A model generated the notes under the pieces. The model had not been told where the DNA came from and made no database searches. It saw only the letters and a list, made by a program, of their open reading frames with translations. Of a stretch of 64,000 nucleotides of DNA, positions 30,440-63,406 are shown one piece after another (the stretch's first letter is position 1; every line of letters begins with the position of its first letter). The stretch is from assembly GCF_029210365.1 (NCBI RefSeq), contig NZ_JARGES010000027.1, positions 1 through 64,000 of the forward strand. Reading direction: 5' to 3'. The position numbers and the translations under genes were made by a program. This DNA is from Mesorhizobium sp. YIM 152430 (GTDB taxonomy: Bacteria; Pseudomonadota; Alphaproteobacteria; Rhizobiales; Rhizobiaceae).

Positions 30440-30971
30440 TGGAATTGGGCTCCTTGTCCCCGCTTTGTGACAAGGCTCAATCTAGAGGGGGCATATTGCA
30501 ATCTGCTTAAGCGGGAAGGTTAACCAACCGCTACGTTTCGCGTAGTTAAAGTCGTATGAAACTTAAAACTTGAATTACTTGGACGAAGCGAGCCGCGGGG
30601 CGGTGTCGCGCGGCCCGTCTCCAAGGATGAAACGCGTGAAAACCACCTGGCCCCAGAGCGCGGATGGAACGTCACGAAGCATGGCCGGTTCTGTCCCAAA
30701 GCGGACAGGAGACCAACATGCCTGGCCTGCTGCCGGTTTCGTGGACACCGAGATATGGCCTGCTGCATGGCAGGATCGGGAAGTGCTCCTCGAAGCCTGC
30801 CTCCCGCCTGCTGCGGCAAGGATCCCTGTGACGACGGGAACGCGGTCTCCCCGCTGTCCGCAGAAAAGACGTTACACCCGAAAAAGCATTATGGCGGGCG
30901 TGAAAAATGCCTCCGCGCAAGCGGCTTTTCGTGGCGGTCAAGGGCTGGAACGATGAGTTCCTTGGAAAACA
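30440..30971. other. Intergenic stretch without a supported gene
   Basis: About 530 bases between the pilin gene and the tRNA-Val scar. The first part should hold the pilin leader and promoter. ORFs of up to about 150 codons occur on both strands but lack SDs, known motifs or conserved-looking composition. The stretch may contain remnants of older insertions, but I recognise none. Confidence 0.5.
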
Positions 30972-31017
30972 TGGTGGGCGATGACGGGCTCGAACCGCCG
31001 ACATCTTCGGTGTAAAC
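30972..31017 (-). other. 3' fragment of tRNA-Val(TAC): left prophage attachment site (att)
   Basis: The minus strand shows the 3' 46 bases of a tRNA: anticodon loop TTTACAC, stem CGAAG, T arm GGCGG-TTCGAGC-CCGTC, acceptor ATCGCCC and an encoded ACCA. The 5' half is missing. On the phage side the sequence diverges right after the anticodon loop. This is the classic scar of a tyrosine-recombinase insertion. The intact tRNA-Val should lie at the other end of the prophage, outside the window. Confidence 0.85.
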
Positions 31018-31061: not shown

Positions 31062-31145
31062 CTTCGTAAATGGGTCGTTTCCGGCATGGTTTCGCGTTTC
31101 GTTCTCAAAAGTCAGGTTCGCCGTGTCAAAGCGCACTTCGTAAAT
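31062..31145. repeat. Direct repeat CTTCGTAAAT near integrase: possible arm-type sites
   Basis: The 10-base word CTTCGTAAAT occurs at 31062-31071 and 31136-31145, with a partial copy CTTCGT at the scar edge (31017-31022). The position between att and int is where arm-type integrase sites usually lie. The functional role is inferred. Confidence 0.4.
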
Positions 31146-32134
31146 CAGAACTCCAGCGACGACGCGAGCTTGCGCAGGTGGCCTGGCGAATAGCGGGCAT
31201 AGACGCGATAGGTGATGCGCGGATTGTCGTGCCCAAGGAATTGCGCGATTTCATCCATGGAGTGGCCGTCCTCGGCCAGCCAGACCGCAGCCGAATGCCG
31301 GAGCATGTGCGGTGACACGTCGGGCCTGCCGATCGCCTCGCCTGCGGTCTTGATGCCCTTCCGAATGGACTTTACTGGCCCGCCTGCCCATTCGATCACG
31401 TAGGGCGACAACGCGCCCTTGTGGGCTACGTCGAGCGCAGCGCGCAGCTTGCCGTTAATCGGCACCGAGGCGCGGCCCTTGCGCTTCGCCTTGTCGAACG
31501 GATTGCGCAGGTGGATGATTCCTCGCGCGAAATCCACCCGATCCCACGTCAGTTGCAGCGCCGCCTCGCTTCGTGCGCCAGTGCCGATCATCAGCATGAT
31601 CGCCAGGGCAACATGCGGCGCGTTCGTCGCGTCCATGAGCTTTGCGGCTTCATCCTTCGTGATATAGCCGTCCTTCGGGTTCGGCTTGGTCGGCCGCTCG
31701 ATATGCGGCGCGTGTGGTATCATCCGCTGCTTCCATGCCCAGACCAGCACGGATCGAAGATGGCCGAGTTCGGTGTGAATCGAGCCATCGCTCTTCCCGG
31801 CCTGCCTTCGCGCTTCGACATAGGCGCGGCAATCGGCCGTGGTGACCTCAACGGCCTCGACGCTGGCGAACCAAGGCGCCAGCGCCTTCCATGTGTATTT
31901 CATGGTTTCGGCGATCGACCTACCGGCCTTGTCCAGCCGATAGCCCGCCCAGATGTCCTCTACCGTCGTCCCGCGCGGACGCGTGAGTTCGGCATATCGA
32001 GCCGGGGCGAGGCGACGCGCCTCTTTTGGATCTGATGTTCCAAGTCGATAACGCCGTCGTCCGCTGGCGACGGTGGGGTCGTCCCAGGTGACGCAGAGTT
32101 CGTCTCCGAGCTTGGTGATGCGCCATTCTGGCAT
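31145..32134 (-). CDS. int: Tyrosine-recombinase phage integrase
   Basis: A 329-aa integrase with an N-terminal arm/core-binding region and a catalytic domain. Arg188 lies in GTGARSEAAL, His276-x-x-Arg279 in SPHMLRHS, His302 in FLGHDNP, and the Tyr312 nucleophile in RVYARYS. It inserts the phage into tRNA-Val next door. It is the last gene of the leftward operon. Its 5' end overlaps the excisionase frame by about 175 bases, which is unusually long. Confidence 0.95.
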   Translation of the reverse strand: MPEWRITKLGDELCVTWDDPTVASGRRRYRLGTSDPKEARRLAPARYAELTRPRGTTVEDIWAGYRLDKAGRSIAETMKYTWKALAPWFASVEAVEVTTADCRAYVEARRQAGKSDGSIHTELGHLRSVLVWAWKQRMIPHAPHIERPTKPNPKDGYITKDEAAKLMDATNAPHVALAIMLMIGTGARSEAALQLTWDRVDFARGIIHLRNPFDKAKRKGRASVPINGKLRAALDVAHKGALSPYVIEWAGGPVKSIRKGIKTAGEAIGRPDVSPHMLRHSAAVWLAEDGHSMDEIAQFLGHDNPRITYRVYARYSPGHLRKLASSLEF

Positions 32135-41606: not shown

Positions 41607-41846
41607 TCATGCCTCGCCTTCCTCGCGCACCTTCCGGCCCTTCTCTGTCAGCCGGAACCAGAACTGCATCCCGCGGCCCGGCACGAGTTCGACCAAGCCC
41701 ATATCGACCAAGCTATCGACGGTCCGCTGTTCGTGGCCGATGAAATAGTTCAGTTCCCGCCCCACGCTGTCCTCATGATCGAACCCGTCGTCCAGCTTGA
41801 TCATCATGCGGATTTGCGCGGTGGAGAGGTCGGACAGGCGGGTCAT
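41607..41846 (-). CDS. Small winged-helix-like protein, 79 aa
   Basis: The start at 41846 overlaps the repressor stop (ATGA). The pattern (LSTAQIRMMIKLDDGF, then SLVDMGLVELVPGRGMQFWF) looks like a compact winged helix for DNA binding. It is cotranscribed with the repressor and may adjust its action. No family is recognised. Confidence 0.6.
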   Translation of the reverse strand: MTRLSDLSTAQIRMMIKLDDGFDHEDSVGRELNYFIGHEQRTVDSLVDMGLVELVPGRGMQFWFRLTEKGRKVREEGEA

Positions 41847-42508
41847 GCCGTTTTCAGCTTCAACTGACCCTGCACGCCGCCTTGGCGCTCGATCTGGTTC
41901 GTCATGCGGCGAAGCTGGTTTGCGCGGATCGTCACGTAGATCTCGCCCACCCATTCAAGCTCTTGATCCTCGATCGGATGGTCGTTCCAAGATTCGAGCG
42001 TGTAGCCCCGCGCGCCGCGCCGGATCGTCTTGAGGAAGCGCCGGCCGTCGCGCGTCCGTACCGCCGCTTCCTCGCCAAGGAATGAATCGGTCCCGCGCTT
42101 CTGCTCGCGCCAAACGATAATCACGTCGCCCTCGTCATAGCGGGGCAGCATCGAAATACCTTTGACCTGGAACGCGATCATGTCGCCTGGCAGCGGAATG
42201 CGCAGCGTGATCTGGTCGAGGCCCTCCGGCGGCGTCTGCTCGAAGTCGGGATCGATCTGCGCGCCCGCTCCGACGAAGCCCATCAGCGCGACGGTGCTGG
42301 TCGGCTCTTCGATGTCCTCGGGATCGCGGTAGAGATCATCGGGCGTAACGCCGAGAGCGTCGGCAATCGGCATCTCCCTCTTCGGCATGATCCGCGTGTG
42401 GCTGTTTTCGATACGGCTGATCGTCTGCCACTGGACGCCGATAGCGTCGCCAAGGTCGGTCTGGGTCCAGCCCTTGGCCTCTCGGAGTTCTTTGACGCGG
42501 TTCTTCAT
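41843..42508 (-). CDS. S24/LexA-like phage repressor (CI-type)
   Basis: A 221-aa repressor. The XRE HTH lies in residues 5-60 (GWTQTDLGDAIGVQWQTISR). The self-cleavage module has an Ala-Gly site in FVGAGAQI (about 78-85), Ser119 in GISMLPRYDEGDVI and Lys160 in RRFLKTI. RecA-assisted cleavage would induce the prophage. Start at 42508 is preferred; an upstream ATG at 42529 lies inside an operator. It should bind the five ATCGCA-N5-TGCGAT sites. Confidence 0.9.
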   Translation of the reverse strand: MKNRVKELREAKGWTQTDLGDAIGVQWQTISRIENSHTRIMPKREMPIADALGVTPDDLYRDPEDIEEPTSTVALMGFVGAGAQIDPDFEQTPPEGLDQITLRIPLPGDMIAFQVKGISMLPRYDEGDVIIVWREQKRGTDSFLGEEAAVRTRDGRRFLKTIRRGARGYTLESWNDHPIEDQELEWVGEIYVTIRANQLRRMTNQIERQGGVQGQLKLKTA

Positions 42509-42527
42509 GCCGCAATCGATATCAAAC

Positions 42528-42544
42528 ATCGCAAAAAATGCGTA
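42528..42544. promoter_or_regulatory. Repressor operator copy OR-a
   Basis: ATCGCA-AAAAA-TGCGTA, one half-site imperfect. It shares its last base with the next copy, so this pair is end to end, directly in front of the repressor gene. Confidence 0.7.
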
Positions 42545-42560
42545 TCGCACGAAATGCGAT
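42544..42560. promoter_or_regulatory. Repressor operator copy OR-b, perfect palindrome
   Basis: ATCGCA-CGAAA-TGCGAT, with both half-sites exact, 17 bases. It is centred 16 bases from OR-a and 33 bases from OR-c. Confidence 0.75.
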
Positions 42561-42568
42561 CTTAGAGG

Positions 42569-42598
42569 TTGACGATATCGCAAAAACTGCGATATAAG
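42569..42598 (+). promoter_or_regulatory. Rightward early promoter (PR-like)
   Basis: TTGACG (42569-42574), an 18-base spacer and TATAAG (42593-42598). The operator at 42577-42593 fills the spacer. It is placed to drive the Cro-like gene and the rightward replication operon. Confidence 0.7.
42577..42593. promoter_or_regulatory. Repressor operator copy OR-c, perfect palindrome
   Basis: ATCGCA-AAAAC-TGCGAT with flanking symmetric AT pairs (42575-42595), the longest dyad of the set. It lies between the -35 and -10 boxes of the rightward promoter. Confidence 0.75.
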
Positions 42599-46961: not shown

Positions 46962-46974
46962 GGGAGCGCCCCGA

Positions 46975-47825: not shown

Positions 47826-47866
47826 CCCCTCAATCAATCGATCGATCCAATGGAAGGAGCACTGGC

Positions 47867-48409: not shown

Positions 48410-48966
48410 TGCTGATCCTCGGCCTCGACATCGCGACGACAACAGGGTTCGCCTGGTACGATACCGAGGCGAGCCTATCGGCCATCAAAGCGGGCTCTTT
48501 CCGCATCGGCGGAGAGGGATTCGAGAACCGCGCCGGTGAGATGGGCGCCACCATGATCCGCATGCTCAAGGAGCAGCGTCCGGACTTCGTCGCGATGGAA
48601 CAGCCAACGCGAAACGTCATGCAGCATCGCAAGCAAACTCACGATCTCGCCGGCGAACACGACGAACTCACCATCAATGCCGGGACATCGCTGTTGCTGA
48701 ACCAACTGACGGGCGCGGCGGCGGCAATCATTCGCGGCTATCGAATCCCGTTCGATGTCATCGCGCCAACATCCTGGCGCAAGCAGTTCCTCGGATTTGG
48801 GAAGCGGCCGGGCTGGCAGCGCAAGGATTGGAAGAAGGCGGCACGGGACCGCTGCGCGCAGCTCAGGATCACTGTGACCAATGACGACATGGCAGATGCC
48901 GTTGGTGTCGCCTTCGCAGGCGCTTCGCTCCAGACCTTCAAGCATATGCAGGCGAGGGCGGCATGA
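48409..48966 (+). CDS. RuvC-like Holliday junction resolvase, phage type
   Basis: A 185-aa RNase-H-fold nuclease. The N-terminal Asp is in LGLDIATTTGFAWY (residue 6), a Glu follows in FVAMEQP, and a late acidic pair in NDDMADAVGVAF. It would cut branched DNA during replication or packaging. It is coupled to the DnaB-like gene by an ATGA overlap. Confidence 0.82.
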   Translation: MLILGLDIATTTGFAWYDTEASLSAIKAGSFRIGGEGFENRAGEMGATMIRMLKEQRPDFVAMEQPTRNVMQHRKQTHDLAGEHDELTINAGTSLLLNQLTGAAAAIIRGYRIPFDVIAPTSWRKQFLGFGKRPGWQRKDWKKAARDRCAQLRITVTNDDMADAVGVAFAGASLQTFKHMQARAA

Positions 48967-50414
48967 ACGCATTTGCTCGCGATCTCAAGCCAGCTCTTCC
49001 CGATGCCGTCGATGCAGAGTGTGCGCTGCTCGGCGCCATCATGCTGAACGCCGACGCTTACTGGCGCGTCGCGGGCTTTCTCAAGGGCCAGCACTTCAAG
49101 GAAGACGTGCACCGGCTGATCTACGAGACGATGGGCACGCTGATATCGAGCGGGCGTTCGGCGAACCCGGTCACGCTCAACCCATACATGCCCGCTGGCC
49201 TGATGATTGGCGACATCACGATCACGGCCTACCTCGCGCGGCTGGCCGCAGGCGCGATCAACGTCATCAACGCCTACGACTATGCCCGCGCCATCATCGA
49301 AATGTGGTCGCGGCACCAGATCATCGCCCGCATGGAAGACGTCATCGAAATGGCACGGTCCATGCCGGCCGACATGACGCCAGAGAGGATCATCGGCCAT
49401 GCCGCCGGCGAGCTCACCCGGATCGCCCAAGAGGGCAATGAGCGCGCGGGCTCGACCAAGTATGGTGTCGTTCTCCCGGCCGCCGTCGACAAGGCGGCGA
49501 AGGACAGCGACAACAGCGCGTCGCGCATCCCGTGGTTTCTGCCGGAGATCGGCCAGGCGCTCGGCGACATCCGCCGCGGCAATCTGATCGGCCTGATGTC
49601 GGATTCGGGCGGCGGCAAAACTTCATTCAGCCTGCAGCAGTGCCGTTTCGTGGCAGGACGGGGCTTCAAGTCGGCGTTCTTCTCGATCGAGGTCACGGAA
49701 GAGGAGGCGGCTCTCCAGGCCGCGGCGCAGCACAGCAAGATCAGTCTCGGGCGGATCGACAACTTCACGCTCAACTCGAAGGAAAAGGCCGACCTCGAGG
49801 CGGAGATGATGGCCTCGACCGATCTGCCATTCTATATCGTCGGCTTTGGCGAGTGCACGCTCTCGGACATCCGGATCAAGGCGGAGGCGATGGTCAAGAG
49901 CCATGGGCTCGACCTCATCGTCATCGACCACGCGAAGATGATCACACTGCCGAATCCCAAGGACATGTTCGCCGAGCGGATCAATGCGCTCTACCGCGGC
50001 CTCAAGGCGCTGGCGAAGACGCTGAACGTCGCCATCGTGATCCTGATCCAGCGGAACGACGACTGGAAGAATCGTTGGCGCTCTGGCAGCTCCATCCGTC
50101 CCGTCATGGGCGACGCATATGGCGGCGGCTCGATCAAGCAGAGCCTGGATGTCTGGTTCTCGCTCTACCGCCCGGAACCGCTCTATCGCGAGTTGATCCC
50201 CACCATGCCGCCGGAACGCGCCCGCGACGGAGAGAAGACCAAACGCGAGGTGATGATCGAAAAGCTCGAGATGAGCCGAGGCAAGGCGTGGGTCATCAAT
50301 CACAAGCGCCGGCGCGGCGAGCCCGGCCAATCACCTGAAATCCGGTTCGACGGCGAGTTCACCATGTTCTCATCGTCGTCCGACGAGATGCCACCTGCAT
50401 TCGAGGGCTTCTGA
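48963..50414 (+). CDS. DnaB-like replicative helicase
   Basis: A 483-aa protein with the DnaB N-terminal domain (residues about 10-110, DAECALLGAIMLNADAYW), a linker, and a RecA-like ATPase: Walker A SDSGGGKTSF (about residue 212-221), Walker B LDLIVIDHAKM, and QRNDDWKN further on. It unwinds DNA at the phage fork. Together with the DnaA-like protein downstream it forms the replication module. Confidence 0.9.
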   Translation: MNAFARDLKPALPDAVDAECALLGAIMLNADAYWRVAGFLKGQHFKEDVHRLIYETMGTLISSGRSANPVTLNPYMPAGLMIGDITITAYLARLAAGAINVINAYDYARAIIEMWSRHQIIARMEDVIEMARSMPADMTPERIIGHAAGELTRIAQEGNERAGSTKYGVVLPAAVDKAAKDSDNSASRIPWFLPEIGQALGDIRRGNLIGLMSDSGGGKTSFSLQQCRFVAGRGFKSAFFSIEVTEEEAALQAAAQHSKISLGRIDNFTLNSKEKADLEAEMMASTDLPFYIVGFGECTLSDIRIKAEAMVKSHGLDLIVIDHAKMITLPNPKDMFAERINALYRGLKALAKTLNVAIVILIQRNDDWKNRWRSGSSIRPVMGDAYGGGSIKQSLDVWFSLYRPEPLYRELIPTMPPERARDGEKTKREVMIEKLEMSRGKAWVINHKRRRGEPGQSPEIRFDGEFTMFSSSSDEMPPAFEGF

Positions 50415-50770
50415 TGACCAAGGACTTCCTGCCCGAATACAGCCAGATGCCCTACGGCTCGCGCTACCGGCCCTTGTTCAAGCTCTTCGCCGGTGAGAAC
50501 TGGCGCTTCGTGCGCAAGGACGGTCAGCCCGTCGAGTGCGACACCGCCACCCAGGCGATCGACGCGGCCAAGGCTTGCGTCAAGGCTATCTTGAACCCGG
50601 TCATCCGCGCTGAGGTGATCGAGCCCGACGCCATGCTCGACGAGGTCGCCGAGTGGCGCCAGCGCAAGGAAGCTGAGGCCGCAGAGGAGCGCGCCCGGGC
50701 ATTCCTCGGTCCCGAGACGCTGTTCAGCAAGGGTCGTCAGGTCGTTGTCGAGCGGAGGAGAGCGCGATGA
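50414..50770 (+). CDS. Hypothetical phage protein, 118 aa
   Basis: The start overlaps the helicase stop (TGATG). The N-terminal half has aromatic residues (SRYRPLFKLFAGENWRFVRK), the C-terminal half is a charged helix. A helicase accessory role is possible only by position. Confidence 0.6.
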   Translation: MTKDFLPEYSQMPYGSRYRPLFKLFAGENWRFVRKDGQPVECDTATQAIDAAKACVKAILNPVIRAEVIEPDAMLDEVAEWRQRKEAEAAEERARAFLGPETLFSKGRQVVVERRRAR

Positions 50771-51009
50771 CACCACGAGACATGGCAAACGCAATCATTG
50801 CCGAGACCGCAGCTGCGCACCGGGCAACTCCTGCCGAAGTGATGGGGCGTAACCTGTCACGTCGCGTCGTGGCGGCGCGGTACGCCTGCATCCGCGCGAT
50901 TGACGCCGCGTTTGACTGGACACCTTCTCATCTTGGCCGCCTCTTCGGCCGTGACCATTCGACGGTGCTGTATGCGCTTGGCAAGCTCAAGAAGAAGCCA
51001 ACGGTATGA
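50767..51009 (+). CDS. Stand-alone DnaA domain IV-like protein
   Basis: An 80-aa protein that consists of a DnaA C-terminal DNA-binding domain: RRVVAARYACIRAIDAAFDW, then LGRLFGRDHSTVLYALGKL, where GRDHSTVLYA is the DnaA box-binding signature. No ATPase domain is present. It may bind DnaA boxes at the phage origin or compete with host DnaA. It has ATGA overlaps at both ends. Confidence 0.8.
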   Translation: MTPRDMANAIIAETAAAHRATPAEVMGRNLSRRVVAARYACIRAIDAAFDWTPSHLGRLFGRDHSTVLYALGKLKKKPTV

Positions 51010-51218
51010 AGCTCAACGCGCGGATCGAGCAGCAGAAGGCGAGGGATGCAGGAGCGCGCGGCGGCGCCAGAGCGGCTTATATCCAGGCGACCGACCGTCT
51101 GTTGGATGAATACGAGCAGGGCAGGGCAGCGAGCGCGGTGCTGGCAGACATGAAGCGGGAGCGAGATGCCTATCGCGCCCGACTCCCCGGCAACCAGAAC
51201 AGGCCGCGCCATGGCTGA
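51006..51218 (+). CDS. Small phage protein, 70 aa
   Basis: A very charged helical protein (AYIQATDRLLDEYEQGRAAS) with an 8-base overlap with the next gene and a 4-base overlap with the DnaA-like gene. The function is unknown. Confidence 0.55.
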   Translation: MKLNARIEQQKARDAGARGGARAAYIQATDRLLDEYEQGRAASAVLADMKRERDAYRARLPGNQNRPRHG

Positions 51219-51648
51219 CATCTATCGCGTCGCCCGACAGTGCGGCGTCATCCTAAGAGAAGGTCATGAGCATCCGGGGGCGTTTCGACGTCCCCGTGAG
51301 TGTTTCTGCAAGCCGACGCTGCGCGAGATCGGCCGAGAGCATGGCGAGGATCATCTTCGCCTTGTGCTCATGCTCATGACCGGCACGAAGACGAACGCTG
51401 CCGAGCTCTACGCCGACATGATCAAGGCCGTCTCGTCGGTGCTGGCGCGCAACCCGGATCTCATCAAGCGCCCGTCGCTGGTGCACGATTTCAACGCGAT
51501 CGATCTCGGCTCGCTCAGGAAGAAGGCCAAGGGCATGAACAGCGGCGTACCCACGACCCATGTCCTTCGTGTTCTGATCGGTCTGAAGTTCTACAGCCCC
51601 ATCCAGGGCGATCTCATCGAAATGCTCACAGGAGAGGCGGCGGCGTGA
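51211..51648 (+). CDS. Hypothetical phage protein, 145 aa
   Basis: The start at 51211 is chosen within the previous gene's last codons. The protein is helical, with a REIGREHGEDHLRLVLMLMT segment and a C-terminal hydrophobic pattern. A regulatory protein of the late genes is possible. The stop overlaps the next GTG start. Confidence 0.6.
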   Translation: MADIYRVARQCGVILREGHEHPGAFRRPRECFCKPTLREIGREHGEDHLRLVLMLMTGTKTNAAELYADMIKAVSSVLARNPDLIKRPSLVHDFNAIDLGSLRKKAKGMNSGVPTTHVLRVLIGLKFYSPIQGDLIEMLTGEAAA

Positions 51649-52229
51649 CCTACGAGGCTTGGACGTACGATGCGGTTCGTGACCGCGTATTGGAAGCGGC
51701 AGAAACCCTGATGGCATCGCCGGCAGCGCTCGGACCGCGCATGCTCGGCAGCATGTCCGACATCTTCAGCGAGTATGTCGACGACTACCGCAGAGGCGAG
51801 ACGACGCGCATCCGGCGCATCCCAGCACCCGGCGCGCTCACCCGCATGGAAGAGACCTGGACATGGATCAACACCATGCTCGAGGAGAAGGAACGCAAGC
51901 TCCTCTACGATTACAGCTTCCTCAAGAGCCGAAAAGGCATGTACCTTGCCCGGTATCTGGAGCAAAACGGCGTCATTCGCCGAACTTTCGAGCGCCGTGT
52001 AAACAAGGCGTGTCAACGCATTGCGAACAATCTCAACCGGCAGCTATCAGTTCGGTTGACAATGCCGCTGGACGGCGTGTCGCAAATCAGGACAGAAGTC
52101 GATCCAACAACGGTATCTTCGGTGTCGTACGCCAAATGGGAACGCGGCGCCGATGCGAAGCCCCAGCACCTCCCTGATCATCCCGATCACAGGAACCTCG
52201 TGAGGCAGCTTGCCAGGCGAGCGGGGTGA
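51645..52229 (+). CDS. DUF6362-like HTH protein (late regulator candidate), GTG start
   Basis: A 194-aa protein starting with GTG (GTGA overlap). The middle resembles DUF6362: a helical segment (MEETWTWINTMLEEKERKLL) followed by an HTH-like region (KGMYLARYLEQNGVIRRTFE). It sits just before the head genes where late-gene regulators or small terminases are often placed. It ends one base before the SLATT gene on the other strand. Confidence 0.65.
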   Translation: MTYEAWTYDAVRDRVLEAAETLMASPAALGPRMLGSMSDIFSEYVDDYRRGETTRIRRIPAPGALTRMEETWTWINTMLEEKERKLLYDYSFLKSRKGMYLARYLEQNGVIRRTFERRVNKACQRIANNLNRQLSVRLTMPLDGVSQIRTEVDPTTVSSVSYAKWERGADAKPQHLPDHPDHRNLVRQLARRAG

Positions 52230-52751
52230 TTAGCTCGCGGGCTGTTCGTCCACGTCACTGGTGTAGTGGCCCGCCTTGATCTTCGACTGCGCTTCCTTGA
52301 AACACCAATCTGGGGCGGGGGGTGCGGACCCGCGGGCCGCGTCTAACCGATCCATCAAGGCTTCAAACTCTGCTTGAAACTCTTCGAAAGGGCCAGATCT
52401 GCGGATTATAGATATCTGTCGGAACCGGTCGCGTAGATTGGTGAATTCCGCAGCAGAACGACTGATCTCAGACACGCGCATGTCCATGTTCAGCGCGATG
52501 TAGATGGAAGGGAAAAAGCCGGCGGTGAGGCTCATGAGAGCGGCGACTGCTTGGGCCCAGTCGCTACGAAGCGTCGTCCCCAAAATTTGGGACGTGGCCA
52601 CACCGGCTAGCAGGATCGGAGCAATCAGGAAGCCGGCCCGCCACCGCTGAGCGCTCTTTTGCCAAGTGTAAAGGCTAGCCCCCGTATATCGGCAATTGTC
52701 CTCTTGGCGGCTGCATTCGTCGACCAGGCTCTGGATGCGAGTGTCCGTCAT
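52230..52751 (-). CDS. SLATT-domain two-TM effector of a CBASS-like pair
   Basis: A 173-aa protein of the SLATT type: an N-terminal helix (YTGASLYTWQKSAQRWR), two adjacent TM helices (about residues 41-60 and 67-88, short loop), and a C-terminal helical region. SLATT proteins are predicted pore-forming effectors that respond to nucleotide second messengers. The start at 52751 overlaps the CD-NTase stop (ATGA); a longer frame would overlap by 43 bases. It would depolarise the membrane when triggered by the CD-NTase product. Confidence 0.75.
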   Translation of the reverse strand: MTDTRIQSLVDECSRQEDNCRYTGASLYTWQKSAQRWRAGFLIAPILLAGVATSQILGTTLRSDWAQAVAALMSLTAGFFPSIYIALNMDMRVSEISRSAAEFTNLRDRFRQISIIRRSGPFEEFQAEFEALMDRLDAARGSAPPAPDWCFKEAQSKIKAGHYTSDVDEQPAS

Positions 52752-53626
52752 GGGATCAACGGGATGTCCGTCCCGAATATCTTCTGCCATTCTTCACCCG
52801 CTGAAATCGGACGGCTACCTGCCTCGTGTTCGCATGCATTGATAGCGCGATCCCGTGCCGTTCGCGCCTTCGATGTCCAGGCTGAACCCAAACTCATGGC
52901 TTCCCAAGTTCCCGGCGCGAACACATAAGAGTTCTCCTTGCCGACAAGGTAAACTAGGAAGTCGCGCACCATCCAGTCATACCAGGTTCGGCTCTTGCCG
53001 GCATGTTCCCAGCTGTTGATGAAGTCCACTGCTAGGATTTCAAACCAAAACGACTTAATCGGAACAGCGCAGTGAGTTTGCCAGCGCTTCATCATCTTGA
53101 CGAGTTCGCGGGTATTGCCATTCGACCGTGTTGTTGAGCTGGATATAGCAACTCGTTCAGCCTCGTAATCCGCCGCCTTATAGCTTCCCCCGCCAGCCGT
53201 AATGCATACCCAATATTTTCCATCTTCGAGCTTGAAAGCGGGAATGACCTCGACGTTATAGGAAGAGAATGGAACCACGACAGCCGGGCCGTCCCCGCGT
53301 ATTGCGGTGTAGGGATAACTCTTGAGAAGTACGCCGCGAATCTCCTGCAAGAGTTGTGACTGCTTGTTGCCTTCGCGTCGCTGGTACTGTTCGTAGACTG
53401 AATAGGGCAACTGGAAAAGAACGTCGACATCGCGAGGCGGCCGCATACGAGTGCGTTTCGCCCATGAGCCGATGAAGATCGAGTTGGCCGTGCCGCTGGA
53501 TGACGCCCAATAGTACAGGTTGAGCGGCTTGATGGCGCTCTCGCGACGATCTCGACCGTTCTGCATCTGGATGTCCGTGAGGGTTAGCCTCTCGAGGAAT
53601 ATGCGGAAGCGTTCCGAGACAGACAT
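52748..53626 (-). CDS. CD-NTase-like nucleotidyltransferase (SMODS, CBASS synthase)
   Basis: A 292-aa protein with the pol-beta-type active site: FIGSWAKRTRMRPPRDVDVL (Gly53-Ser54, Asp66-x-Asp68) and the third acidic residue Glu126 in SSYNVEVIPAF. This layout, with GS at the start and D-x-D about 12 residues on, is that of cGAS/DncV-like enzymes. The C-terminal helical half fits the second domain. It would make a cyclic di- or trinucleotide on phage infection. It is coupled by ATGA to the SLATT gene, on the strand opposite to the phage late genes. Confidence 0.78.
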   Translation of the reverse strand: MSVSERFRIFLERLTLTDIQMQNGRDRRESAIKPLNLYYWASSSGTANSIFIGSWAKRTRMRPPRDVDVLFQLPYSVYEQYQRREGNKQSQLLQEIRGVLLKSYPYTAIRGDGPAVVVPFSSYNVEVIPAFKLEDGKYWVCITAGGGSYKAADYEAERVAISSSTTRSNGNTRELVKMMKRWQTHCAVPIKSFWFEILAVDFINSWEHAGKSRTWYDWMVRDFLVYLVGKENSYVFAPGTWEAMSLGSAWTSKARTARDRAINACEHEAGSRPISAGEEWQKIFGTDIPLIP

Positions 53627-53684
53627 GCTTGTGCTCACCGTTTGGCTTTGAAAAACAATCAAAACGTGCATCAGGAAATCAAGC

Positions 53685-54056
53685 ATGGCTAGGGGCGGCA
53701 GTCGAACTAATGCCGGCCGCAAGCCCGGCGTCCCCAACAAAGCGTCTGTCGAGCGCCAGAAGAAGGTCGCAGCGACCGGCGCGACCCCGCTCGAATACAT
53801 GCTGAAGGTGATGCGCAACCCGAAGGCGAGTGACCAGAGGCGGGACGACATGGCGAAATCGGCTGCCCCCTATGTGCATCCCAAGCTCGCGAGCATGCAG
53901 CACACCGGGCGCAATGGCGGCCCCATCCAGACCGTCGACCTGACCAAACTGAGTGGCGATGAACTCGATCAGCTCGAAAGCATCTTCGGTCCGCTTGCCG
54001 GATCCGGCGACGATGATGCGCCTGATCCGGCAGGAGAGGGCGCGGCGGCAGGATGA
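53685..54056 (+). CDS. Terminase small subunit-like protein
   Basis: A 123-aa protein beginning MARGGSRTNAGRKPGVPNKA, the pattern of phage small terminases and related packaging proteins. A helical middle (GATPLEYMLKVMRNPKASDQ) and an acidic tail follow. It recognises phage DNA for packaging. It overlaps the large subunit gene by 44 bases. Confidence 0.72.
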   Translation: MARGGSRTNAGRKPGVPNKASVERQKKVAATGATPLEYMLKVMRNPKASDQRRDDMAKSAAPYVHPKLASMQHTGRNGGPIQTVDLTKLSGDELDQLESIFGPLAGSGDDDAPDPAGEGAAAG

Positions 54057-55482
54057 GGCCGAACGCAACCGCGTTGCCCGCGACGCCGAACGGATTCGGG
54101 AGCGGTGCCAGACGCTGTCCGGGTTCGTCCGTGAGGCCTGGCATGTACTGGAGCCGACGGCAAAGCTGGTCTGGAACTGGCACCTCGACGCGATCTGCGA
54201 ACACCTCGAGGCGGTGACCGACGGCCGGATAACCCGGCTGCTGGTCAACGTGCCTCCCGGCTCGTCCAAGTCGATGCTGGTCGCGGTGATGTGGCAGGCA
54301 TGGGAGTGGGGTCCGAAAGACCTCCGCTCGATGCGGTATCTGACGACGTCGTTCAACGATGGGCCGGTCAAGCGCGACACGCGCAAGTGCCGCGACCTGA
54401 TGCTTTCGGACTGGTACCGGGCTCTATGGCCCGAAGTGGTACTGACCCGCACGGGTGAGACGTCTTTCGCCAACAGTTCGACCGGAACCCGTGAGGGTGT
54501 CGCCTTCGGGTCGCTGACGTCGCAACGTGGCGATCGTCTGGTCATCGATGATCCGCACTCCACCGAAACGGCAGAGAGCGCGACCGAGCGCCTGGCGACG
54601 ACCCGCAAGTTCCGTGAGGGCGCCCAGAACCGTCTGAACGATCAGGAGAAGTCGGCGATCGTCATCATCATGCAGCGCTTGCATGAGGAGGATGTGTCGG
54701 GCGTTATCGAGGAAATCGGGATGGACTATGTCCACCTGATGCTCCCGATGGAATTTGAGCCGGAGCGGGCGTGCCAGACCGAAATCGGGTTTCGCGATCC
54801 GCGCACCTATGAAGGCGAATTGCTCGACCCTGCGCGCTTCCCTGCGGAGGCGGTGGCCAAGCTCAAGCGCGACATGGGCAGCTATGCTTATGCCGGGCAA
54901 TACCAGCAGCGCCCGGCGCCCCGATCGGGCGGCATGTTCCAGCGCAGCGACTTTGAGGTCGTCGACGCGGTTCCCGCTGGCGCGCGGCGGTGCAGGGCGT
55001 GGGACTTCGCGGCATCGAAGGAAAAGCCCGGCCGGCAGCCGGACTGGACCGTCGGGCTGCTCATGGCGCACCACAAGGGCACATTCTACGTCGAGGACGT
55101 CGAGCGTGGCCGCTGGTCTGCCGGCGAAGTCGAGACGAAGCTGAAGAACATCGCGACACAGGACGGATTGAGCGTCACCATCCGAATGCCGCAAGACCCG
55201 GGATCGGCCGGCAAGGCGGATGCCGCGACGAAGACGAAGCTGCTTGCCGGACACGCCGTAAAGGTGTTGCCGGTAACGGGCGACAAGGCCACCCGCGCCA
55301 AGGGCGCATCTGCCCAGGCTGAAGCCGGCAATGTAAAGGTGGTGCGCGGCCGCTGGAATGAACTGTTTCTGGACGAGGTCTGCTCGTTCCCGAACGCACA
55401 ATTCGACGACCATGTCGATGCCTTCGCGGACGCTCTGAACGAGCTCGCGCTGGGATCGACCTTCACTCTCGACAATCTCTAG
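54013..55482 (+). CDS. Phage terminase large subunit
   Basis: A 489-aa packaging motor. Walker A-like VNVPPGSSKSML (about residues 74-85), Walker B RLVIDDPHS (about 175-183), and a C-terminal RNase-H-like nuclease domain with AWDFAASKEK and a late DDHVDAFADAL acidic pair. Start ATG at 54013 or 54016 (two in a row). It packs DNA into proheads through the portal encoded next. Confidence 0.92.
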   Translation: MMRLIRQERARRQDEAERNRVARDAERIRERCQTLSGFVREAWHVLEPTAKLVWNWHLDAICEHLEAVTDGRITRLLVNVPPGSSKSMLVAVMWQAWEWGPKDLRSMRYLTTSFNDGPVKRDTRKCRDLMLSDWYRALWPEVVLTRTGETSFANSSTGTREGVAFGSLTSQRGDRLVIDDPHSTETAESATERLATTRKFREGAQNRLNDQEKSAIVIIMQRLHEEDVSGVIEEIGMDYVHLMLPMEFEPERACQTEIGFRDPRTYEGELLDPARFPAEAVAKLKRDMGSYAYAGQYQQRPAPRSGGMFQRSDFEVVDAVPAGARRCRAWDFAASKEKPGRQPDWTVGLLMAHHKGTFYVEDVERGRWSAGEVETKLKNIATQDGLSVTIRMPQDPGSAGKADAATKTKLLAGHAVKVLPVTGDKATRAKGASAQAEAGNVKVVRGRWNELFLDEVCSFPNAQFDDHVDAFADALNELALGSTFTLDNL

Positions 55483-55490
55483 GAGCCGAC

Positions 55491-57329
55491 ATGGGAGCCG
55501 TGATCGACATCGCGCGCCGGTTCGGCGACAGCCTGACGAACCTTGTGTCGAGGATGGGCACGGAGCGGGACAAGGCATCGCACTCGTTCTACGGCGCCGT
55601 GCTGCTCGATGACGCTCAACTCGTCAACTCCTATCGCGGCGCCTGGCTGCCAAGGAAGATCGTCGATATCCCTGCGCTGGACAGCTGCCGCAACTGGCGC
55701 AACTGGCAAGGCGATGAGGATCAGATCGAAGCCATCGAGGCCGAAGAGAGCCGGCTGAACCTGCGCGGCAAGGTGCTTGAGGCGCGCACCAAGGCCCGTC
55801 TTCTCGGAGGCGCGGCCATTCTGATTGGCACTGGCGAGGCGAACCTGCTTGAACCGCTGGACGACGCCCGTATCGGGCTCGGCGGCATCAAGTATCTGAC
55901 CGTCTTCACCCGCAAGCATTTGACGGCGGGCGAGATTGATCGCGACCCCGCATCGGAGTTCTATGGCCGCCCGGCGTTCTATCGTCTGACGGGCAAGGAC
56001 GGCCGGCAAGTGGAGGTGCACCCCTCGCGCCTTGCTGCCTTCCAGGGCAATGCTGTGCCAGATGAGGATTTCGCGCAGTATCAGGGCTGGGGCGACAGTG
56101 TGCTCGTCGCGGTCATGGACGCGATCAGGAACGCTGACAGCACGGCCGGCAACATCGCCTCGCTGGTGTTCGAGGCCAAGATCGACATCATCCGCCTGCC
56201 CAACTTCATGGCGAACCTGGGCGACGAGAGCTACAAGCAGAAGATCCTCGAGCGCTACACCCTCGCCAACACGGCCAAGGGCATCAACGGCACGCTGATG
56301 CTCGACAAGGAAGAGGAATACGAGAGCAAGTCGGCGAACTTCTCGAACTTGCCTGACGTTCTCGACCGATTCCTGCAGATCGTTTCCGGCGCGGCCGATA
56401 TCCCGGCAACGCGCCTCTTGGGGCAGTCGCCAGCGGGCCTGAACTCCACCGGTGAGGCAGACCTGCGGAACTACTACGACCGCATCTCCGCCATGCAGGA
56501 AATCGAGATGACGCCGGCCCTGCACCGGCTGGACGAATGTCTGATCCGTTCTGCTGTTGGTTCGCGTGACCCCGGCATCCACTATCGCTGGGCCCCGCTC
56601 TGGCAGATGACCGACAAGGAACGGGCCGACATATTCAAGACCAAGGCCGACGCGGCGCGCGCCATTGCGGGCTCTGGCGGCATGTCTCCGCAGCTCATGC
56701 CGATCGATGCGCTGTCGGATGCGCTGGTCAATGCCTTCGTCGAGGACGGCAGCCTGCCGGGCCTGGAGAAGGCGATCGAAGAGTACGGCAAGCTGTCCGA
56801 GCAGGAAGAGGACGAGGACGACGTGGCGGCCGCGCTGCCGGCACCTGCGAACACCAATGAGCAGATGCGCCTTGCTGCGAACGATGCCGCGCCGCGCACG
56901 CTGTATGTCCGCCGCGATGTCCTCAACAAGCGCGATATCGAGCGCTGGGCGAGGGCGCAGGGCTTCACCGACATCGTGCCCGATCTGCACGTCACGATCG
57001 CCTACAGCCGGACGGCGGTCGATTGGTTCTCAGTCGGTACGTCATGGTCGGAAAAACTGGACATCGCCGCCGGTGGTCCGCGCCAGATGGAACGCCTTGG
57101 CGATGACGGCCGATACATCGCGCTCCTGATCACGGCGAACGAGCTCGTCTGGCGTCATCGCGAGATCGTCGATGCCGGCGCGTCGTGGGATTGGCCGGAC
57201 TATCAGCCGCACATCAGTATCCAGATCGGCGGCGACATCGATCTGGCGCAGGTCGAGCCGTACCAGGGCAGGATCGTGCTGGGGCCAGAGGTTTTCGAAG
57301 AGGTTCACGGGGTCGACGTACGAAACTGA
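55491..57329 (+). CDS. Portal protein (DUF1073) fused to an Acb1-like 2H phosphoesterase domain
   Basis: A 612-aa protein. Residues 1-450 are the DUF1073-type portal: LVSRMGTERDKASHSFYG at the N-terminus, LVFEAKIDIIRLPNFMANL, and LLGQSPAGLNSTGEADLRNY. Residues about 470-605 form a separate domain with HVT (His500-x-Thr502) and HIS (His574-x-Ser576), the paired signature of 2H phosphoesterases. Acb1, the phage anti-CBASS enzyme that cleaves cyclic nucleotides, belongs to this family. The join is in frame, through an acidic linker. Enzyme activity is inferred. Confidence 0.82.
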   Translation: MGAVIDIARRFGDSLTNLVSRMGTERDKASHSFYGAVLLDDAQLVNSYRGAWLPRKIVDIPALDSCRNWRNWQGDEDQIEAIEAEESRLNLRGKVLEARTKARLLGGAAILIGTGEANLLEPLDDARIGLGGIKYLTVFTRKHLTAGEIDRDPASEFYGRPAFYRLTGKDGRQVEVHPSRLAAFQGNAVPDEDFAQYQGWGDSVLVAVMDAIRNADSTAGNIASLVFEAKIDIIRLPNFMANLGDESYKQKILERYTLANTAKGINGTLMLDKEEEYESKSANFSNLPDVLDRFLQIVSGAADIPATRLLGQSPAGLNSTGEADLRNYYDRISAMQEIEMTPALHRLDECLIRSAVGSRDPGIHYRWAPLWQMTDKERADIFKTKADAARAIAGSGGMSPQLMPIDALSDALVNAFVEDGSLPGLEKAIEEYGKLSEQEEDEDDVAAALPAPANTNEQMRLAANDAAPRTLYVRRDVLNKRDIERWARAQGFTDIVPDLHVTIAYSRTAVDWFSVGTSWSEKLDIAAGGPRQMERLGDDGRYIALLITANELVWRHREIVDAGASWDWPDYQPHISIQIGGDIDLAQVEPYQGRIVLGPEVFEEVHGVDVRN

Positions 57330-57350
57330 TCGACCGGAATTCGTCGACTC

Positions 57351-57659
57351 CTACTTCTCCCGCCGATAGACGTCAGAATTGAAGCGGGGTTCCGAATACT
57401 CAACGAGAATGTGCTTTTCGACCGTGATCGAGCTTTTCAGCGCTTTTTCGGCAATGGACTTGATCTCATTGAACGCCTTCTCGGCGCTTTGCAGATCGTA
57501 GAACGCGCCGACGATTGTCGCGTTCGGCAACCGGTGCCAGGCCCCTTCCGAACTCAACATCCATGTTGCCCAGCCAAGCTTGATCGCAGCGTCTCGAAAC
57601 GCAGGGTAAGGGCTGGGGTTGGCGTCTGCGAGGTCGTATGTCGCTAGAAATCTTGGCAA
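57351..57659 (-). CDS. Cas2/SinR-like ferredoxin-fold protein, moron candidate
   Basis: A 102-aa protein on the opposite strand to all its neighbours. LATYDLADANPSPYPAFRDA at the N-terminus, then WHRLPNATIVGAFYDLQSAE, resembles the Cas2/SinR/VapD-type ferredoxin fold (Asp after the first strand). No CRISPR genes are near. The flanking DNA looks more A+T-rich. It is likely an independently acquired gene (moron) with unknown activity, perhaps nuclease or toxin. Confidence 0.55.
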   Translation of the reverse strand: MPRFLATYDLADANPSPYPAFRDAAIKLGWATWMLSSEGAWHRLPNATIVGAFYDLQSAEKAFNEIKSIAEKALKSSITVEKHILVEYSEPRFNSDVYRREK

Positions 57660-57735
57660 TTCTTCCTCCCTCTTGCTGCGCTCGCAGACTGTTGTGAATG
57701 CAGCCAGGAGTCGACATCCGACGAGGGTCTTTTAC

Positions 57736-58872
57736 ATGCAATTCACAGACGCTGTAACCGTCGCGGGGACGCGCCGGACCGGTGACGGCTATCTTGTCGC
57801 CGACGCCAAGGCCGTCCGCACGGGCATCCAGCTCTATGCGGGCTCCGAAGTCGGCCGACCTGACCTTGCTATCGTTCGGGTCTACCGATCCGAGGACGAG
57901 GTTCGCAATACGGACAGCCTGCGCTCTTTCAGCCATGCGCCGATCACCGTCGAGCATCCCGCCGTCTCGGTTAACGCCAAGAACTGGAAAGACTTCGCCG
58001 TCGGTGAGGTCAGCACGGCGGCGACATGGGACGGCAACCGCATTTCCCTGCCGCTGATCCTGAAGGACGCCAAAGCCATTGAGGCGGTGACAGGCGGCAA
58101 GCGCGAGCTTTCGGCCGGGTACACCTGCGACCTGGACTGGACCGCCGGCACGACCAAGGACGGCCAGGCCTTCGACGCTCAACAGAAGAACATCCGCGCC
58201 AACCACGTCGCCATCGTCGACCGTGGCCGGGCCGGTTCCGAATGCAGGATCGGTGATGCCGAACCGCATAAGTGGGGCGTGAGCCCTGTCAACCTCCAGA
58301 CTGCAGATGAAAGGACCATCCAAATGGATCTGCGAAAAGTGCTGGTCGATGGGCTCACGGTCGAAACGACCGATCAGGGTGCCCAAGCAATCGACAAGCT
58401 TCAGAACGCCCTCAAGGATTCGGCCGCTCGCGTCGAAACCCTGACGGCTGATCACGCCAAGGCCATCGCCGCCAAGGATGGCGAACTGGCAAAGAAGGAT
58501 GCCGAGATCGACGCCCTCAAGGGCAAAGTTCTCGACGCCGCCGCGCTCGACAATCTCGTGCAGGCCCGATCGGCACTCGTCGACACGGCCCGCAAGATCG
58601 CGAAGGACGTCAAGATCGACGGCCTGACCGATGCCGAAATCCGCAAGGCGGTCGTCACCGCCAAGCTCGGCGATGATGCGGTCAAGGACAAGGCCGAGGC
58701 GTACATCGATGCACGCTTCGACATCCTTGCCGAGGACGCCGCCAAGGCCGCCGACCCGGTGCGCCAGGTTCTCCGTTCCGGCGTCCAGTCGAACGACGCC
58801 GCCACTGCCGACGAGGACAAGGCCTATGCCGCGTCCCTGGCTGATCTCAACCGCAAGACGGAGGCCGCATAA
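57736..58872 (+). CDS. DUF2213 phage protein (protease/scaffold candidate)
   Basis: A 378-aa protein. The N-terminal domain (about 1-190) has RPDLAIVRVYRSEDEV, SHAPITVEHP, and TGGKRELSAGYTCDLDW, as in DUF2213. The C-terminal half is a long coiled coil (AAKDGELAKKDAEIDALKGK) like a scaffold. Just before the capsid genes such an order suggests a prohead protease fused to scaffold, but this is inferred. The start at 57736 has a weak gaggg SD. Confidence 0.8.
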   Translation: MQFTDAVTVAGTRRTGDGYLVADAKAVRTGIQLYAGSEVGRPDLAIVRVYRSEDEVRNTDSLRSFSHAPITVEHPAVSVNAKNWKDFAVGEVSTAATWDGNRISLPLILKDAKAIEAVTGGKRELSAGYTCDLDWTAGTTKDGQAFDAQQKNIRANHVAIVDRGRAGSECRIGDAEPHKWGVSPVNLQTADERTIQMDLRKVLVDGLTVETTDQGAQAIDKLQNALKDSAARVETLTADHAKAIAAKDGELAKKDAEIDALKGKVLDAAALDNLVQARSALVDTARKIAKDVKIDGLTDAEIRKAVVTAKLGDDAVKDKAEAYIDARFDILAEDAAKAADPVRQVLRSGVQSNDAATADEDKAYAASLADLNRKTEAA

Positions 58873-59306
58873 TGGACCCGCTGCAGACTTCTTATCCCGA
58901 TCGGCAGGCGCGCTGGGTCGAGGGCATGATCCCCGACATGCGCACGCCGGGCCAGGACATCTCCATGAACGTGGAGACCGCCGCCGGTATCGGCTTCGGC
59001 AAGGTGGCCGTGCAGGGCACCGCGGACAACCAGATCCGCGTCTCCGCTGCATCGCGAGCTTTCCGAGGCGTGACCGTGCTCGACACGACGCAGCTGCAGG
59101 ACAGCTACCCGCAGTATGCGACGGCCCGCGTCCGCACCAAGGGCCCGATCGTCGTCACGGCGGCTGTCGCCGTCGCTGCGGGCGCTCCGGCCTACTACGT
59201 GCCGGCATCGGGTGCATTCACCAACGTCGAGACCGACAACACGCTGGTTGGCACGTGGGAAACCACGACCTCCGGCGCCGGTCTCGCCGTGCTCAACCTG
59301 AGCTAA
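58872..59306 (+). CDS. Capsid decoration / structural cement protein
   Basis: A 144-aa protein rich in Ala, Gly, Thr and Val, with IGFGKVAVQGTADNQIRVSA and a late GTWETTTSGAGLAVLNLS. The pattern fits small beta-barrel cement proteins between scaffold and capsid genes. The ATG overlaps the previous stop (TAATG). Confidence 0.75.
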   Translation: MDPLQTSYPDRQARWVEGMIPDMRTPGQDISMNVETAAGIGFGKVAVQGTADNQIRVSAASRAFRGVTVLDTTQLQDSYPQYATARVRTKGPIVVTAAVAVAAGAPAYYVPASGAFTNVETDNTLVGTWETTTSGAGLAVLNLS

Positions 59307-59325
59307 TCCTGAAAGGAACGAGGAA

Positions 59326-60273
59326 ATGAAGCACTTCCAGATGGATGCTCAGGTCGCGATGAGCTTCGCGGTCTCGCAGGCATCCCGCATCAACGCCACG
59401 GTCTACCAGACCCGCTATCCGGCGATTCGGTACCGTGGCCTCGTGCCGGTCGATACGACCGGGCCGGAATGGGTGAAGTCGATCACCTATTTCTCGCTCG
59501 ACGGCGTCGGCCAGGCGGAATGGATGAACGCGGGCGCGGACGATGTGCCGCGCGCCGAGCTCATCCGCGCCAAGACCGAAACGACCGTCTCCATGGCGGC
59601 TATCGGCTACGGCTGGAATCTCGAGGAACTGGCACAGGCCCAGATGCTTGGCGTCGACCTTGCCCCGCGCAAGGGTCAGGCTGCGCGTCGCGCTTCCGAG
59701 GAGTTCATCGATCAGGTTGCCTTCTTCGGCGACGTGGCGAAGGGCTTCTACGGCGTCACCAACCAGCCCGGCGTTACAGCCGGCGACGTTGCTGCGGTTG
59801 GGACGGGCTCTTCGACGGAGTGGGCGAACAAGACGCCGGGCCAGATCCTCGCCGACGTCAATGCCATCCTGTCGGGCGTGTTCGTCGACAGCAACACGGT
59901 CGAACTCGCAGGCGTCCTGCTTCTGCCCTACACGCAGATGCACTACCTCGGCACGACCCTGCTCAACGACAATGGCGCCGAGCGCACCATCCTGTCGTGG
60001 CTGCGCGAGAACAACGTCTACACCATGGAGACAGGCCAGCCGCTCACGATCCGCGCCGTTCGCGGGCTGGAGACTGCCGGCGACGGCGGTACGGCGCGCA
60101 TGGTGGCCTACCGGAACGATGAGGAAGTGCTGCGGCTCAACATGCCGATGCCCTTCCGCTTCTTCCCGGTCTGGCAGACGGGTCCGTTCCGCTACGAGGT
60201 GCCCGGTGCATTCCGTATCGGCGGCGTCGATGTCTCTCTGCCTGGCGCGATGCGCTACGCGGACGGCATCTAA
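59326..60273 (+). CDS. Major capsid protein (DUF2184)
   Basis: A 315-aa protein of the DUF2184 group: IRYRGLVPVDTTGPEWVKSI near the N-terminus, a long-helix region (GQAARRASEEFIDQVAFFGD) and a C-terminal PFRYEVPGAFRIGGVDVSLP. It forms the HK97-fold shell. The start follows a gaggaa SD. Confidence 0.87.
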   Translation: MKHFQMDAQVAMSFAVSQASRINATVYQTRYPAIRYRGLVPVDTTGPEWVKSITYFSLDGVGQAEWMNAGADDVPRAELIRAKTETTVSMAAIGYGWNLEELAQAQMLGVDLAPRKGQAARRASEEFIDQVAFFGDVAKGFYGVTNQPGVTAGDVAAVGTGSSTEWANKTPGQILADVNAILSGVFVDSNTVELAGVLLLPYTQMHYLGTTLLNDNGAERTILSWLRENNVYTMETGQPLTIRAVRGLETAGDGGTARMVAYRNDEEVLRLNMPMPFRFFPVWQTGPFRYEVPGAFRIGGVDVSLPGAMRYADGI

Positions 60274-60285
60274 GGAGGATCGGAT

Positions 60286-60639
60286 ATGACGAAGATCACC
60301 AACAACGCTGCCGGCGTTCGCGTCGTCAATGCCAAGGTCGACGGCAAGGTCACTCAGGTTTCGCTCCGTCCGGGCGAAACCAAGGATCTCGACCTTATCG
60401 AGACGAAGGCCATGAAGGCCCGGATCGGATCCGGCGACATCGTCGTCGGCAAGTCTGCGGCGAAGGCAAAGGAGTCGGATACCGGCTTTAAGGCCGAGCA
60501 TCACGGCGGCGGCAAGTTCAACGTCACCGAGGGTGAGACGGTGCATCTGTCCGGTCTCTCCAAGGCTGACGCGGACGCCTTCAACGCGATGAGCCCAGCC
60601 GACCAGAAGGCCTATGTCGACGCCGAGAAGGCCAAATAA
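60286..60639 (+). CDS. Hypothetical structural protein, 117 aa
   Basis: A beta-rich protein; LRPGETKDLDLIETKAMKAR is the best-defined region. It lies between capsid and connector genes, so a head role is likely. The SD aggagg is strong. Confidence 0.65.
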   Translation: MTKITNNAAGVRVVNAKVDGKVTQVSLRPGETKDLDLIETKAMKARIGSGDIVVGKSAAKAKESDTGFKAEHHGGGKFNVTEGETVHLSGLSKADADAFNAMSPADQKAYVDAEKAK

Positions 60640-60707
60640 AGCACAACGGGCCCGGTTTTGCGTAATGCGGGAATCGGGCCCCGGTCTTTTGCGTTAAGCG
60701 AGGCGTC

Positions 60708-62559: not shown

Positions 62560-62563
62560 TGTA

Positions 62564-63404: not shown

Positions 63405-63406
63405 CC

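Follow-up and report, generated by a model that had tools for sequence, protein, structure and literature searches.

The first 64,000 nucleotides of contig NZ_JARGES010000027.1 from Mesorhizobium sp. YIM 152430 (the whole stretch analysed, hereafter called the window) carry part of a prophage in which a portal gene ending in an Acb1-like domain lies close to a two-gene operon of the cyclic-oligonucleotide-based antiphage signalling system (CBASS), encoding a cGAS/DncV-like nucleotidyltransferase (CD-NTase) and a SLATT effector. A first-pass annotation, made from the sequence and treating Acb1 as a 2H phosphoesterase that cleaves the cyclic nucleotides of CBASS, had proposed that the lysogen protects itself with the CD-NTase/SLATT pair and silences it during its own lytic growth through the portal, so that attack and antidote would be paired in one element. 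We followed the two parts through virus records and related genomes.

The portal gene and the CBASS operon

The main features are the following:

55491..57329, + strand: portal gene, 612 amino acids (aa), made of a Phage_portal_3 core, a linker and a C-terminal Acb1 domain (Pfam; match to Pam3 8HDS)
56895..57326, + strand: Acb1-like 2H phosphoesterase domain, portal residues 469-612 (Pfam, alignment, predicted fold)
52748..53626, - strand: CD-NTase (SMODS), about 292 aa (Pfam, PADLOC, alignment)
52230..52751, - strand: SLATT/2TM effector, with an ATGA overlap with the CD-NTase (PADLOC, NCBIfam)

In Pfam profile searches, Phage_portal_3 covers residues 43-389 of the portal (E = 9.4e-113; 377 bits against a cut-off of 33.8), the gene is placed after that of the terminase large subunit, and the portal of phage Pam3 (8HDS) aligns to it across residues 12-609 (E = 8.4e-163). 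The C-terminus had been read as a 2H phosphoesterase domain like Acb1, and this reading was confirmed: Acb1 PF23474 covers residues 469-606 (E = 4e-33; 114.6 bits against a curated cut-off of 27) and the crystallised Acb1 of phage FBB1, 7T26, is also matched by sequence (E = 5e-6). The structure predicted for residues 463-612 (mean predicted local distance difference test score of 89) has as its top Foldseek matches FBB1 Acb1 7T26 and 7T27, with a probability of 1.00, and for 7T26 the TM-scores are 0.67/0.73 at 28% identity. Because the first fold match of the domain is FBB1 Acb1, the two HxT motifs are more than a chance pair, and the residues named earlier, His500-x-Thr502 and His574-x-Ser576, are exact in the alignment (H500-V-T502 and H574-I-S576). 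LigT and a phosphodiesterase of a Burkholderia phage are among the further fold matches, and the closest match outside portals, by sequence and by fold, is Acb1 itself. In PHROGs a single portal family, phrog_146, spans residues 12-604. The Pam3 portal 8HDS is missing from the 50 fold matches listed out of 87, which may hint that the Acb1 domain of Pam3 is unmodelled in the virion.

Conservation was read from 99 aligned Acb1 rows, 87 of them distinct, which comprise 80 virus loci, 12 relatives, six named phages and the window; for the alignment (A1), L081 and L085 were omitted from the 69 distinct virus domains listed, which left 67. H500, T502 and H574 are kept in all 99 rows and E600 likewise, Y472 in 98 and E603 in 91, and residue 576 is T in 74, S in 24 and G in one (T or S in 98). 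The roles of the T4 Acb1 residues (Y12, W74 and F107 as base-stacking aromatics, E141 as the glutamate contacting adenine) were taken from Hobbs et al. (PMC9117128), and the numbering was mapped by us through the FBB1 row: Y12, F107 and E141 of T4 align with Y472, W568 and E603 of the window, and the position of T4 W74 is not clearly alignable. The lid tryptophan (T4 W147) is found in 37 of the 99 rows; Pam3 has it, Rhizobium phage RHph_TM3_3_3 is without it, and in the window domain there is none after the GPE motif. Judged from the alignment, the catalytic core of the window domain is intact and the portion closing over the substrate differs; the missing lid tryptophan counts against full equivalence to T4 Acb1.

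The CD-NTase matches SMODS in Pfam (E = 5.6e-27) and the cyclase profile of PADLOC (E = 1.7e-112), and the SLATT gene matches the PADLOC 2TM effector (E = 3.4e-59); SLATT_4 itself is matched below the cut-off in Pfam and barely above it in NCBIfam (56.2 versus 55). The probable start of the CD-NTase is 53626, where its homologues begin, and not 53851, where the 367-aa open reading frame (ORF) starts; the SLATT gene most likely starts at 52751 because of the ATGA overlap with the CD-NTase stop. G53-S54, D66, D68 and E126, which we take to be the active-site residues of the CD-NTase, are invariant in the 21 relatives of alignment A2, from which L014 (internal stop), L022 and L023 (both partial) were excluded. 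The predicted model is nearest to CdnD of P. aeruginosa (6P82, TM-score of about 0.8), and at 23% identity this enzyme is too distant, so naming the product by fold was dropped. A SLATT match lies downstream in 22 of the 23 related CD-NTase genome loci. By its genes, the pair appears to be an ordinary two-gene type I CBASS operon with a putative anti-phage role.

Spread and exchange of the portal-borne Acb1 domain

Virus loci with an Acb1 domain were collected as the best 80 of 91 matches. In 79 of these 80 at least 300 residues precede the domain and a portal core is matched, and the remaining one ends at a contig edge. Matches annotated as portals come from Rhizobium, Pseudomonas, Synechococcus and Pseudanabaena phages, and the fused reading frame was verified in RHph_TM3_3_3 and Pam3. 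The portal-Acb1 fusion is widespread and not special to this prophage. In a relative, L124, the Acb1 domain is joined to a portal of a different Pfam family, PF04860, and fusion to two portal families points to more than one origin. Unfused copies also occur near portals: Synechococcus phage Yong-M3-232 has an Acb1 ORF overlapping the portal end, and in Edwardsiella phage ZHS an Acb1 ORF lies ahead of the portal, separated from it by a single short gene. Labels of 'prohead protease' in Roseobacter phage DSS3P8 and in ZHS were considered as additional fusions to head proteins and rejected, since each hit is a short ORF consisting largely of the Acb1 match itself.

Portals exchange their Acb1 domains within the fused gene, and this we regard as new. 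Over 89 fused portals, the identities of the core and of the Acb1 domain to those of the window barely correlate (r = 0.18): L128 shares 80% of the core and 55% of Acb1 with the window, L031 47% and 83%, respectively. Quick trees were built from 44 representatives at 90% identity, with L124 excluded. In the core tree the window and L128 are sisters (SH-aLRT support of 99), a grouping rejected by the Acb1 data (approximately unbiased (AU) test, p = 3.65e-5), and the core data reject in turn the grouping of the window with L027 (p = 7.5e-5). Taken as whole trees, each topology is rejected by the data of the other (p = 1.4e-42 and 4.6e-5), and the lid tryptophan requires at least nine changes on the core tree versus five on the Acb1 tree. 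As a control, one half of the core was set against the other: they nearly agree, at 0.66-0.85 log-likelihood (lnL) units per column and a Robinson-Foulds distance of 46/82; Acb1 versus each core half gives 5.7-7.2 lnL units per column and distances of 72 and 74 of 82. The neighbouring separate genes for DUF2213 (35 rows) and the major capsid protein (MCP, 29 rows) differ from the core by 3.7-7.6 lnL units per column, and Acb1 differs from it by 3.4-5.4 on the same row sets. The tree conflict of Acb1 is thus about that of separate genes: despite belonging to a single ORF, the domain is nearly as mobile as a gene of its own. Mosaicism is common in these phages, and what is notable is a break through a gene at this point. 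The median dN/dS is 0.26 for Acb1 and 0.34 for the core (2765 pairs, 89 loci), a rough estimate in which distant pairs are near saturation.

Outside portals, a stand-alone Acb1-family ORF of 173 aa was seen in L129 (from genome G240). It immediately follows a gene whose product has a telomere-resolvase (ResT/TelK) domain, the two lying within L129 2429-4409, and this arrangement points to a linear plasmid-prophage carrying its own Acb1. Weak Acb1-like matches under the cut-off, in ORFs of 184 and 182 aa, were seen in L118 (G279) and L119 (G220), whose source genomes belong to one genus and are small (1.6 Mb); three genomes of another genus give similar weak matches.

Co-occurrence with CBASS and layout of the prophage

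The first-pass annotation had suggested a survey for CD-NTases in other phages with this portal type. Once run, it found SMODS in none of the 80 virus records with portal-Acb1 (0/50 and 0/30). Starting from the other side, Acb1 was found in none of the eight virus records with related CD-NTases, and neither a portal nor Acb1 in the flanks (at most 10 kb, often shorter) of the 23 related CD-NTase genome loci; the Acb1 profile used for the eight records does find targets in other scans. The window CD-NTase partially matches two of 50,697 phage records. Among 396 relatives, Acb1 is matched in 15 (13 above the cut-off) and SMODS in 48; both occur in four of them (the window genome, G072 with a weak match, G116 and G145), and they share a contig only in the window genome. 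A class sample of 385 genomes gave Acb1 in five (two above the cut-off), SMODS in 18 and both in three, namely the window genome and G549 and G838, where the genes are about 780 and 500 kb apart. Over the 19 Acb1-match genomes of the two samples, a SMODS gene is close by only in the window genome. The association of CBASS with portal-Acb1 is not conserved: the two as a recurrent unit were rejected on 0/80, 0/8 and 0/23, joint inheritance of a defence with its self-immunity was seen in none of these sets outside the window, and the pairing of attack and antidote proposed at the outset is not supported, the Acb1 domain having an exchange history of its own. In L144, one of the eight CD-NTase virus records, the adjoining ORF looks by eye like an integrase.

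The other features of the prophage are listed below:

30960..31017, no strand: left copy of a 58-bp direct repeat, taken as the attachment site (repeat search)
31145..32134, - strand: tyrosine integrase, just inside the left repeat (NCBIfam/PHROGs profile search)
41843..42583, - strand: CI-like repressor (PHROGs match)
51651..52229, + strand: gene with a DUF6362 match slightly under the cut-off, its stop abutting the SLATT stop
53685..54056, + strand: terminase small subunit, divergent from the CD-NTase across a 58-bp gap (phrog_641, E = 1.4e-6)
53953..55482, + strand: terminase large subunit (Pfam, PHROGs)
57351..57659, - strand: small ORF after the portal, 102 aa, with no family match in Pfam, PADLOC, NCBIfam or PHROGs

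The right copy of the repeat lies at contig position 81051, outside the window and about 50 kb from the left one, so the CD-NTase/SLATT operon and the portal are indeed in the same prophage, inside the repeats and with the integrase at the left end. The distance of about 2 kb given earlier between portal and CD-NTase is right from start to start (1.9 kb); the Acb1 domain itself is 3.3 kb away. The CBASS operon is flanked by an early gene on one side and the terminase genes on the other, and runs opposite to them. The G+C content of the CD-NTase (0.546) is the lowest among the 30 prophage genes measured and that of the SLATT gene is 0.584, and their codon scores are the second and the fourth lowest; low G+C together with low codon scores fits a later insertion, which the operon looks like. 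A sigma-70 promoter scan of 51600-54100 gave no site on either strand. Four terminator-like sites were found against 1.7 expected by chance, none of them at the 52229/52230 junction and one, on the + strand at 52760-52775, inside the operon. An Rfam scan of 44000-64000 gave no match.

Other minus-strand ORFs occupy the CBASS slot or the place after the portal in relatives, among those listed; they were called by a rough codon-score ORF caller. Six of the nine scanned had no Pfam match. A PADLOC scan of 25 ORFs, made up of 23 of the 32 slot ORFs, the 57351 ORF and the window SLATT, matched the window SLATT and none of the others. The 57351-57659 ORF resembles, by eye, small ORFs on the minus strand of L126 and L130. 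The prophage also contains a YspA-like SLOG-family protein (PF10686; 39828-40250, + strand) and a PAPS-reductase-like gene (45738-46961, + strand), of which an 84% identity match lies upstream of the PF04860 portal-Acb1 of L124. Outside the window, in the stretch from the tail genes to the right repeat, contig C19 carries at 74529-78282 (L136 10529-14282) genes for a glycosyltransferase 2, a DUF2304 protein, a weak EamA-like match and a methyltransferase, possibly surface-modifying lysogenic cargo.

Interpretation and comparison with known systems

The account that we hold to be the probable one, with moderate confidence, is that two independent parts met in this prophage: an exchangeable anti-CBASS module of the portal and a CBASS cargo acquired later, a case of pre-adaptation and not of an evolved pair. 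Late in lytic growth the portal-Acb1 protein would hydrolyse short cyclic oligonucleotide alarm signals and thereby shield the phage from host CBASS; the trees place different Acb1 domains on cores that are close relatives, presumably through recombination near the linker. The CBASS operon would then have been inserted beside the terminase small subunit, against the lytic direction, the cargo being tolerable because Acb1 was already present, and the lysogen most likely expresses CD-NTase and SLATT to abort infection by competitors. Should the CD-NTase make an adenine-containing ring of two or three bases, Acb1 would on induction weaken the CBASS of the phage itself as well. That induction would be a plausible trigger, by analogy with staphylococcal CBASS, which is triggered by RNA from terminase genes (PMC10686824). 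The first-pass annotation had noted that the portal is made late; in T4, Acb1 becomes active at about 15 min, around the onset of CBASS (PMC9117128), so a late portal would not be too late. Of the self-protection idea as first put, it holds that the two parts are real, lie together in a single prophage and have their active-site residues intact; it is the evolved pairing that is unsupported.

Several points weigh against this account. The window domain and most of the aligned rows are without the lid tryptophan. Two other prophage genes have codon scores as low as those of the CBASS genes, and another 2-kb bin (40-42 kb) is also low in G+C (0.551). The 0/80 survey covered a single CBASS cyclase family, SMODS, and many of its records, being the best 80 of 91 matches, are fragments; in the 0/8 survey the Acb1 profile matched nothing in those records, which makes this zero weak alone. 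SMODS occurs in four of the 15 Acb1-bearing relatives (one of them weak) versus about 1.8 expected (15 x 48 / 396), and one adjacent case among 19 Acb1 genomes is compatible with a rare true pairing. Both clades put to the AU test were picked after the identities and trees were known, and not blind.

A cognate pair, in which CBASS serves superinfection exclusion and the portal Acb1 evolved as self-immunity on induction, like aba for BstA, would draw on the closeness of the genes within a repeat-bounded prophage, on the intact catalytic residues, on a late timing suited to CBASS and on the precedent of a prophage defence with self-immunity (BstA/aba, PMC8585504). We think it quite improbable, since the association is unconserved (0/80, 0/8 and 0/23), Acb1 domains 70-85% identical to that of the window occur on portals in SMODS-free records, and the history of the domain is independent of that of the portal core. 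It is rather improbable, too, that the portal domain has no link to CBASS, being either a 2H phosphoesterase that acts on something else, such as other cyclic nucleotides or RNA ends, or a structural element of head assembly. The missing lid tryptophan, the treatment of residues 12-604 as one portal family by phrog_146 and the presence of LigT and the Burkholderia phage phosphodiesterase among the fold matches would agree with it, but the nearest non-portal match by sequence and fold is Acb1, the catalytic His and Thr are invariant, the unfused copies near portals in two phages oppose a needed structural role, and the swapping between portals together with the PF04860 fusion in L124 favours a portable function.

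Alternatively, on induction the CBASS operon might be shut down not by Acb1 but by lytic transcripts running through it in antisense, which we consider unlikely. The operon does oppose the early and packaging genes on its two flanks, with stops abutting at 52229/52230 and a junction devoid of terminator-like sites; the + strand site at 52760-52775 would however halt the read-through part-way, the scan showed no promoter-like site on either strand, and the presence of Acb1 would be left unexplained.

A bolder extension of the favoured account, which we put forward as a speculative and rather improbable one, is that exchangeable counter-defence cartridges dock at the C-terminus of the portal; here the cartridge would free the phage to carry its own CBASS with an enzymatic self-immunity. 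Acb1 domains of different specificity would be swapped onto a protein that triggers some defences, and the dose of antidote would be coupled to assembly. The phage protein YonE is a portal protein. SpbK has been linked to YonE (PMC12847820) and portals trigger Avs defences (PMC11249213); portals acting as defence triggers would make a counter-defence borne by the portal attractive.

Acb1, CBASS, prophage defence with self-immunity and islands holding both defence and anti-defence are already in print. No description of a portal-Acb1 fusion was found in the literature searched, which included few subscription papers and no supplements; in the parts available to us, PMC11249213, PMC11780129, PMC10419184, PMC11410667 and PMC11722364 contain the terms, with no mention of such a fusion, and a RefSeq product name of this kind did not turn up as a phrase. 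Hobbs et al. (PMC9117128) classed as prophage the Acb1 genes lying at most three genes from a structural or packaging protein, of which 112 are listed, and some portal-fused Acb1 proteins may already be in their tree. If the portal-fused Acb1 is active, anti-CBASS would be built into a virion structural protein of a large phage group and traded by recombination within a single gene, and it would escape surveys limited to stand-alone anti-defence genes. With both CBASS and Acb1 in one prophage, one could ask directly, by genetics, whether possession of a counter-defence enzyme allows a phage to house a defence that would otherwise block its own burst; under the ordinary reading as well, defence cargo and counter-defence can share an element without being a pair.

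Like Acb1 of phage T4 (57B) and FBB1, the window domain has a 2H fold and an HxT-HxT/S tetrad; unlike them, it is fused to a portal, has no lid tryptophan and is presumably made late with the portal, its activity being putative. The portals of Pam3 (8HDS) and RHph_TM3_3_3 are the same two-part protein as that of the window, but neither phage is among the two records matching the window CD-NTase. The overlapping CD-NTase and SLATT genes resemble a type I CBASS with a 2TM/SLATT effector, the difference here being that the prophage carrying the operon has an Acb1-family domain as well. The situation resembles in its idea that of BstA and aba (PMC8585504), where a prophage with an abortive defence must still replicate; aba is a cognate DNA element inside the defence locus, whereas the candidate antidote of the window is an enzyme domain with a separate history. 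Finally, the islands described in PMC12629846 come from Pseudomonas and the anti-defence genes named there are mainly anti-CRISPRs; like these islands, the window unites both kinds of gene in one mobile element.

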